A stretch of DNA of 64,000 nt. Origin: an uncultured Dehalococcoidia bacterium. GTDB taxonomy: Bacteria; Chloroflexota; Dehalococcoidia; Lucifugimonadales; Lucifugimonadaceae. The stretch spans positions 1,426,001-1,490,000 of the forward strand of contig OY282385.1 in assembly GCA_958295935.1 (NCBI GenBank), read 5' to 3'. Shown here one piece after another: positions 1 through 7,159 of this stretch (position 1 is its first letter; the number at the start of each line of letters is the position of its first letter). Below the pieces are notes generated by a model. That model was given only the letters and a program-made list of their open reading frames with translations, made no database searches and was not told the origin of the DNA. The position numbers were made by a program, and so were the translations under genes.

Positions 1-4591
<4,591 letters not shown>

Positions 4592-4612
4592 GTGGCGTAG
4601 TCGGCAGTACTA

Positions 4613-5026
4613 TCACAGTCGGAAAAGACACTCGTTGACCTCGAAAAAAGTAAAGCCACTGTCCAGCACCCGCCCGTCTATCGCGGCGGGGGCGCCGTCA
4701 GGGGTTCGCAGATCGCAGAACGGGCGGGCGACCACGTTCTCGGCAGGCTGCCATGGAAGCAACTGCCAAGTAGAGGGGTCGGACAGCGTGACCATGCCGG
4801 TTTCTTCAACCCTGGCCTTCCCGGCTACTGACGCCCCGTCAAAGGACGCTCCATTGCAAAGCGCTTCCTCCAACCCATCAACGGTTATGGCGAAGCCCTT
4901 GAGAATGCCAAGCATGTCGGTGAACCAGAGCCGTATGAATCTGACGTCGTGCTCCTGAACGGAGAAAAGAACAGGTTTCTCAGCCCCTTCATTGAAACCC
5001 GGCGCCTCTTCAGGCATTTGGGTCAT
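4613..5026 (-). pseudogene. Glutamine synthetase N-terminal domain fragment, catalytic domain missing
   Basis: The 137-residue product matches the start of a type I glutamine synthetase: VRFIRLWFTDMLGILKGFAI and the following FDGASVAGKARVEE, LPWQPAENVVARPFCDLRTPDG are the beta-grasp domain signatures. Similarity continues to GFTFFEVNECLFRL, where GlnA proteins have the first metal-binding glutamates (GPELEFFLF). The frame then stops (TGA, with TAG next). The catalytic barrel, about 300 residues, is absent, so it cannot make glutamine. Start ATG 5026 is chosen; TTG 5050 is an in-frame alternative and neither has a good ribosome site. It sits between a decayed response regulator and gltB. It is most simply a deletion remnant of glnA, but the clean frame leaves open a small regulatory protein. 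Confidence 0.7.
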
Positions 5027-5127
5027 AAGATGGAGAGCCGGGCCGAACAACGTTTCGATCTCGGATGTGTCCGGTGGGCGCCATGTTCGGAAAGGGGTGT
5101 TTACGAAGACCTCAGAAGATTAGGGCG

Positions 5128-5169
5128 CAAGTTTGAAACATTGTGAAGTTTTTGTCAATCAAGTTTGAA
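5128..5169. promoter_or_regulatory. Direct repeat pair CAAGTTTGAA upstream of the glnA-fragment/gltB unit
   Basis: The 10-mer CAAGTTTGAA occurs at 5128-5137 and again at 5160-5169, start to start 32 bp, about three helical turns, in an unusually AT-rich stretch. On the minus strand TTGACA (5158-5153) lies between them, with a weak -10-like CAAACT 17 bp downstream. OmpR-family regulators bind direct repeats and the gene next upstream is a decayed member of that family, so an operator is plausible. Function is inference only. Confidence 0.35.
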
Positions 5170-5268
5170 TTGATCCGATTGTGGGCCGCAAGCACAATCG
5201 CGCCGCTTCCGTTCTCCGTCCCCATCAGCTCACCACTCCTTGTTAAGCGGACCTGGCAACAAACTGGG

Positions 5269-5665
5269 TTATGCCACGCGACTTTCGGCCACGCGGAAAC
5301 GATAACCGACGTTCCACACCGTCTCGATGAAACGATGAGGGACCCAGTCGATTTTCGAACGCAAGCTCCCGCCCGTTGTAGGGGGCATACCAACCCACTA
5401 CGTGGTAGAGATCCATCAGAGCCTCGTCCGACAGTGAGGCCACTACGGGCAGACCAGCCTTGATCGCCTCATAAGCCAGATCGGCCTCTGCGGATACCTC
5501 CTCGTCGCCTCTCCATGCCAGCGCCGCCGCCCCGGTCAGGCCAGACGTCTCTGAAAAGTCTCCATCCACTTCAACGAATTTCGCGCCGGAGACGTACCGC
5601 TTCAGCGCCTCGACTACGCCAAGCGACGCAGCAGAGGTGAAACCGATAAGGCAAATGGTCTTCAT
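5269..5665 (-). pseudogene. Decayed OmpR-family (GlnR-like) response regulator with internal deletion and frameshift
   Basis: Reading from ATG 5665, about 105 residues (MKTICLIGFTSAAS... to YAPYNGRELAFENR) resemble a degenerate receiver domain, ending in the PVVASLSDEAL and YNGREL region. The continuing frame then makes no sense. Shifting one frame gives GGSLRSKIDWVPHRFIETVW followed by NVGYRFRVAESRVA and a stop at 5269. That is the end of an OmpR/PhoB winged-helix domain (LRSKI...IETVWGVGYRF). The middle of the protein, roughly 90-100 residues including most of the DNA-binding domain, is gone. Orphan OmpR-type regulators such as actinobacterial GlnR control glnA and gltB, so the position next to both is suggestive. 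The wing fragment is clear; the receiver assignment is weaker. Confidence 0.6.
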
Positions 5666-5960: not shown

Positions 5961-6557
5961 GTGCGAACATGCGTCTACGTGGACGGTTTCAACTTGTACT
6001 ACGGCGCGCTGAAAGATTCCCCATGGAAATGGCTCGATCTACAGGCCTTCTTCGAGAGCCTGCTCAATCAGCAGGATGTTCGCCGGATCAAGTACTTCAC
6101 TTCGGTTGTCTCCGACCAAAACCCCCGAAATCCCCATGCCAGAGAACGCCAACAGGCCTATCTGGACGCAGTAAAGACATTGCCAAAGGTCGAAATCATC
6201 ACGGGACGGCTCCGCAACGGTAAGGAGAAGATGACGGACGTCGCTATAGCCGTCCACATGCTCGATGACGCTTATCGGCAGGAGTTCGACCAGTTGGCTC
6301 TGGTAAGCGGAGACGCCGACTTCTTGCCAGCGTTGGCGATGATCAAAAAACGGTTCAGGAACAAGGACATAGTGGTTTACGTTCCCGACAATGACAAGGA
6401 CGCCATCGGCAGTTTCTACGCCATGAAAGACATCGTCGACCACATCCGGTTCCTACCGACCCAAGGACTGAAGCACTCGATGCTCCCCAACCCTGTCCGT
6501 TCAGGGCAACGCGACATCGCGAAACCTGAAGCCTGGGGCCGTGTACGAATAAAGTAG
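5961..6557 (+). CDS. NYN domain (LabA/DUF88, PIN-like) protein
   Basis: A 198-residue protein of the NYN family, a PIN-like fold found in RNases and RNA-processing factors. The start is GTG 5961 with GGAG 9 bp upstream; the protein opens with the typical first strand and acidic residue, VYVDGFNLYYGAL. Further acidic conserved positions follow at MTDVAIAVHMLDDA and LVSGDADFLPAL, which together would form the metal-binding nuclease site. The last 30 residues are basic and unconserved. It lies alone between the glt locus and the ribosomal cluster, so context does not help. RNase activity is inferred from the family; the substrate is unknown. Confidence 0.88.
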   Translation: MRTCVYVDGFNLYYGALKDSPWKWLDLQAFFESLLNQQDVRRIKYFTSVVSDQNPRNPHARERQQAYLDAVKTLPKVEIITGRLRNGKEKMTDVAIAVHMLDDAYRQEFDQLALVSGDADFLPALAMIKKRFRNKDIVVYVPDNDKDAIGSFYAMKDIVDHIRFLPTQGLKHSMLPNPVRSGQRDIAKPEAWGRVRIK

Positions 6558-6739: not shown

Positions 6740-7159
6740 GTGCCAACCATCAACCAGCTTGTGCGCAAAGGCCGCCGCCGAACGCGGAAGAAGCCCAAGA
6801 CCCCTGCGCTGCGGTTCACTCTGAACTCTTTGGAGAACCGCATGACGAGGGGCCGCAAAGGCAGCCCACAAAAACGCGGCGTGTGCCTCAACGTACGCAC
6901 AGTCACCCCGAAGAAGCCGAACTCGGCCCTCCGTAAAGTGGCCCGTGTAAGGTTGACCAACGGCATGGAAGTAACCGCATACATACCGGGCGAGGGTCAC
7001 AATCTCCAAGAACACTCGGTGGTTCTCATCCGCGGAGGCCGCGTTCGCGATCTGCCCGGAGTCCGCTACCACGTCGTGAGAGGCACACTCGATACGTCAG
7101 GTGTCCCCGACCGGCGACAGGGACGAAGCAAGTACGGTTCAAGCCGGAGCGGATCATAA
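6740..7159 (+). CDS. rpsL: 30S ribosomal protein S12
   Basis: Decoding-centre protein of the small subunit. Start GTG 6740 gives the usual N-terminus ([12 protein letters not shown]) with GGAG at 6730; an upstream in-frame start would add residues found in no S12. The signature [19 protein letters not shown] includes Lys58 and Lys59, equivalent to the residues where streptomycin resistance arises, both wild type. At 139 residues it is longer than E. coli S12 (124). The extra length is an inserted segment between TPAL and SPQKRGVC (residues 25-41, [16 protein letters not shown]), a form I recall from Chloroflexota and some other phyla. It is the first gene of the supercluster. Confidence 0.97.

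Follow-up and report, generated by a model that had tools for sequence, protein, structure and literature searches.

The closest described system to the locus reported here is that of actinobacterial GlnR, whose receiver domain has conserved Asp50 and Arg52 and whose published binding box reads GTnAC-n6-GAAAC, with variants (PMC10704036). Tandem boxes of this type (GTnAC/GAAAC, 5+6+5) stand before amtB and glutamine synthetase genes in Actinobacteria, and no sensor kinase adjoins the regulator, an OmpR-family protein that governs nitrogen assimilation. A search of titles and abstracts for GlnR in Chloroflexi/Chloroflexota or Dehalococcoides, and for nitrogen regulation in SAR202, found no paper.

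The stretch of DNA analysed here (64,000 nucleotides, hereafter the window) comes from a SAR202-type member of the Dehalococcoidia, the type to which its nearest genomes in the public set also belong, and the genome consists of a single contig of 2.75 Mb that is 95% complete. The family was sampled with 76 genomes, among which 25 others have a completeness of at least 90% and a contamination of at most 5%; the loss described below is claimed for one genome, compared with other genera of its family. General decay of this genome was considered and rejected, ORF coverage amounting to 0.87-0.95 in 16 sampled stretches (by a crude greedy count). A sequence-only reading of the window had drawn the comparison with Actinobacteria, of which the match to a GlnR-type regulator was borne out, but the host belongs to the Dehalococcoidia and is not an actinobacterium. 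We consider it highly probable that what remains at this locus is a ruined glnR-glnA-gltB(-gltD) operon, in a genome that has lost the whole GlnR regulon and is left with GSII as its sole glutamine synthetase.

Remnants of glnA and a regulator gene before gltB

The gene order at this locus is conserved in related genera (L063-L074 and others), where a divergent rpsL is followed by an OmpR-type regulator (~225-250 aa), by glnA (GSI, usually ~455 aa, range ~430-520 aa) and by gltB, all of them intact. The corresponding region of the window, and the genes downstream of gltB, comprise the following features:

2..4591, minus strand: gltB, glutamate synthase large subunit (ORF with GATase_2), open frame leaving the window
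4592..4634, minus strand: scar between the glutamine synthetase remnant and the gltB start, ~1 kb of glnA missing compared with relatives
4613..5050, minus strand: remnant of GSI (glnA), reduced to the beta-grasp N-terminal domain (PF03951, E 1.3e-19), likely start ATG 5026
5130..5158, minus strand: relic of the glnA promoter, TTGACA-n17-CAAACT (relatives TTGACA-n17-AATACT), overlapping a GlnR-box-like pair
5270..5357, minus strand: end piece of the GlnR-like regulator remnant (C-terminus of the winged helix), read in another frame, with the deletion junction near 5357
5357..5665, minus strand: GlnR-like regulator remnant, N-terminal receiver-like half (local alignment to the relatives' regulators, z 6.6-12 over shuffles)
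5961..6557, plus strand: NYN-domain gene (PF01936, E 5e-17), between rpsL and the regulator remnant
6740..7159, plus strand: rpsL, the syntenic anchor (72-81% identity to the rpsL adjoining glnA-gltB in relatives)
L131:18483-19970: gltD, downstream neighbour of gltB
L131:16634-18406: glutamine-dependent NAD synthase, downstream of gltB/gltD

The sequence-only reading had recognised a glutamine synthetase fragment and an OmpR-like regulator side by side before gltB, both with deletions, and had suggested that together with gltB they may be what is left of a regulated GS-GOGAT operon. Both lie on the minus strand where it placed them, and the comparison with relatives that it had proposed lends support to its interpretation, since in these the genes for the whole regulator and for a full-length GSI precede gltB in the same arrangement. 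The losses amount to ~330 codons of GSI and ~95 codons of the regulator. gltB (1530 aa within the window, start at 4591, frame continuing past the window edge), rpsL and fusA are intact.

The glnA remnant is an open frame of 145 codons that ends 21 bases short of the gltB start. The catalytic domain (PF00120), which the earlier reading had noticed to be lacking from the fragment, was found by domain search neither in this ORF nor elsewhere in the locus, and the ORF is therefore a remnant and not a GSI; its beta-grasp domain shares ~55-65% identity with GSI from the closer genera within the family, but the relatives' orthologue carries both domains. We also looked for a GSI C-terminus relic before gltB, a candidate which was rejected, the score being no better than that of shuffled sequences in four of five alignments (best z 2.7). 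A GSI orthologue is found in all 25 other good-quality genomes of the family, and in 24 of them its frame is open over 428 aa or more; in the remaining one (G085) it is interrupted by an in-frame stop. This glnA (L066:2211-3575, also L041) is split into frames of 203 and 240 aa and represents either a second interrupted GSI or an error of the draft assembly. The short GSI frames of G007 and G045, judged from their coordinates, look like contig ends, and those genomes of the family in which GSI or the regulator was not detected are drafts with a completeness of at most 85%.

The regulator gene has lost ~95 codons at one junction, with a frameshift, and these codons comprised the end of the receiver and most of the winged helix. 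That most of the DNA-binding domain is missing had been seen from the sequence alone; the loss of the receiver end is a refinement. What remains behind the junction, LRSKIDWVPHRFIETVWNVGYRFR (about 5357-5270), is the final portion of the winged helix, read in a shifted frame; it matches PF00486 positions 53-77 (E 4e-4) and aligns to residues 196-219 of the intact regulator of relatives with z 17-22 over shuffles. No single frame of the window gene (5270-5665) encodes the whole winged-helix DNA-binding domain, and judged by its sequence the gene is a pseudogene. An orthologue scoring above 140 bits occurs in 25 of 25 other good-quality family genomes, whereas in the window's genome the relatives' regulator finds as its best match a paralogue scoring 75 bits. 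The possibility of an intact GlnR paralogue at another place in this genome was considered and rejected, as none was found in the genome search; the remaining PF00486 proteins, three in number, comprise two ordinary response regulators beside histidine kinases and one GAF-type protein, none of them similar to the lost regulator.

Between the two remnants lies the promoter relic. Its counterpart TTGACA-n17-AATACT stands ~60-112 bp before glnA in 12 of the 15 distinct intergenic regions of relatives. In L075 and L083 almost nothing separates the regulator from glnA, and the promoter region found in other relatives is missing.

The relatives' regulator and its predicted operators

Among OmpR-family proteins, the relatives' regulator finds its best full-length match in GlnR: it matches 8hig with E 5e-37 (full length) and 8hih with E 8e-36, both of which we take to be GlnR (the entry titles read OmpR family regulator / Transcriptional regulatory protein), and the next family follows at E 1e-25 with the DNA-binding domain alone. 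The winged helix is very similar to that of actinobacterial GlnR (LTYKE-ELLKYLA--GRVF-R--LL--VW-YD-FGGTRTVDVH-RRLR-K), and in the loci read the gene is likewise an orphan, flanked by rpsL and glnA-gltB, with no adjacent histidine kinase. Unlike the actinobacterial regulator, it belongs to Dehalococcoidia and is encoded beside glnA-gltB, its gene is destroyed in the window's genome, and in the alignment to 8hig its receiver has other residues in place of the Asp50/Arg52 pair; we therefore restrict the claim to a "GlnR-type" regulator, that is, a variant. A similar GlnR-like protein is encoded in 108 of 148 genomes sampled from the class. In genus g3 (G002:C68, G032:C156, G013:C205) the GlnR-like regulator adjoins glnII within a few hundred bases, an adjacency linking it further to nitrogen genes.

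Boxes of the GTnAC-n6-GAAAC type are present at amtB and at glutamine synthetase genes in the relatives and, judged from sequence, are predicted to bind the GlnR-type protein, which would activate its targets when nitrogen is limiting; with the match to GlnR itself they bear out the guess of the sequence-only reading that the regulator is of this type. A four-block box (GTAAC-n6-GTCAC-n6-GCAAC-n6-GAAAC or close to it) precedes amtB at 27 of the 29 loci of relatives, and GAAAC-n6-GAAAC precedes glnII on the coding strand in 29 of 29 relatives, counts that are not independent as the relatives share descent. The amtB box lies 93-301 bases ahead of the start of the match and scores 21-35 with a matrix from which the box of the locus in question was excluded, compared with at most 14.5 for shuffled sequences (200 tries per locus). 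The two amtB loci without a box belong to copies at 69-70% identity and are perhaps paralogues. The stretch that separates the regulator from glnA also has a GlnR-type pair in 13 of 15 distinct relatives when a looser pattern is applied (0.96 expected from shuffling).

In the window's genome these sites have decayed or are absent. The best site before amtB, GTAACTGGTGCTTCACAGTGGCAAAGTAGGCAGGTAAG, stands at -104, the same place as the box of relatives, but scores 8.4, two of the four blocks being recognisable and two gone. Upstream of glnII the GAAAC-n6-GAAAC box is absent, and nothing there exceeds shuffled sequence. A genome-wide scan allowing at most one mismatch gave no four-block box in this genome, and one each, at amtB, in G011, G006 and G029. 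The amtB and glnII loci of the window's genome are about 450 and 250 kb away from the window.

Remaining ammonium assimilation and the fate of the proposed regulon

The only other glutamine synthetase of the genome is a GSII (GlnII) of 343 aa, which scores 549.4 bits with the NCBIfam GlnII model (cut-off 500) and is the only full-length glutamine synthetase encoded. A full-length GSI was sought through the whole genome and not found, PF03951 matching only the remnant and GSII. From the sequence alone, another glnA elsewhere or an unusual ammonium assimilation had been expected; another glutamine synthetase is present, but it is of type II and not a second GSI. GSII occurs in 44 of 75 relatives and is therefore probably inherited. 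The genome further encodes amtB and glnK as neighbours, as well as gltB and gltD.

In the ancestor, as presumably in today's relatives, a GlnR-type regulator of the OmpR family would have bound tandem boxes with a period of ~11 bp before amtB-glnK and glnII, and also around the glnR-glnA promoter, and may thus have tuned ammonium uptake and glutamine synthesis to the nitrogen supply. Deletions in the lineage of the window would then have removed most of the DNA-binding domain of the regulator and the catalytic domain of GSI. Since no regulator was left to keep the operators under selection, the amtB box would have decayed and the glnII box vanished. At present, GSII and the intact GOGAT presumably assimilate ammonium, with the AmtB/GlnK pair at hand, free of GlnR control. 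It is likely, though held with less confidence than the reading of the locus itself, that an Actinobacteria-like GlnR regulon exists in SAR202/Dehalococcoidia and was lost whole here, which would leave GSII-GOGAT unregulated or differently regulated.

The order of events in this scenario is what we infer, and it could be reversed if control of the amtB and glnII promoters had first passed to another regulator, so that the loss of the boxes preceded and caused the decay of glnR and glnA. Such a prior takeover appears unlikely: the sequence of events is not readable from a single genome, which leaves room for it, but no candidate for a replacement regulator was found in the genome and the amtB box, with two of its four blocks still in place, fits passive decay.

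A second alternative concerns the short glutamine synthetase ORF, which could encode a functional small protein, acting as partner or inhibitor of GSII or as a translated leader that sustains transcription into gltB. It has a start, is open over its 145 codons up to 21 bases before gltB and retains a -35 element upstream. However, the entire catalytic domain is missing, and a same short gene conserved among relatives, which would have spoken for function, was sought and not found, their GSI being full-length. The domain has also changed far faster than neighbouring genes at sites that nine relatives (L083 excluded) share without variation: 13 of 68 such sites are altered, compared with 75 of 1003 in this genome's rpsL, fusA and segments of gltB (Fisher p 0.002), and a similarly deep lineage (L065) has 1 of 56 changed in this domain. 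These substitutions point to relaxed constraint. Since a random point change in the remnant creates a stop in just 2.8% of cases, an open frame is to be expected after a fairly recent loss, and we regard a functional small protein as very improbable. We give hardly any credence to the view that faults of assembly or consensus produced both deletions in an organism whose glnR and glnA are in truth intact. The genome was probably assembled from a metagenome, but its 2.75 Mb form one contig and it is 95% complete; the two losses are clean and internal to adjacent genes next to intact gltB, rpsL and fusA; and the predicted operators of amtB and glnII, which lie hundreds of kb off, are lost as well.

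If collapse of a GlnR-type regulon is the correct reading, the genome represents a natural experiment in which regulator, GSI and distant operators were lost and GSII was left as the only glutamine synthetase once GSI had gone. It would also predict how nitrogen assimilation is controlled in an abundant and mostly uncultured marine lineage, namely by a GlnR-type regulator with Actinobacteria-like boxes, a prediction for which the window's genome would serve as an internal test because the broken regulator coincides with decayed predicted operators.

The NYN-domain gene at 5961-6557 has no counterpart, at the threshold used, at the same place in the syntenic relatives examined, where the gap between rpsL and the regulator measures a few hundred bases and contains no such gene. 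At L128:2283-3221 (minus strand) a frame of ~312 aa made of near-identical repeats (EGDWDLDD-LDDLFSKLDGYEGGFGLSS...) overlaps the start of an MtrA-like response regulator.
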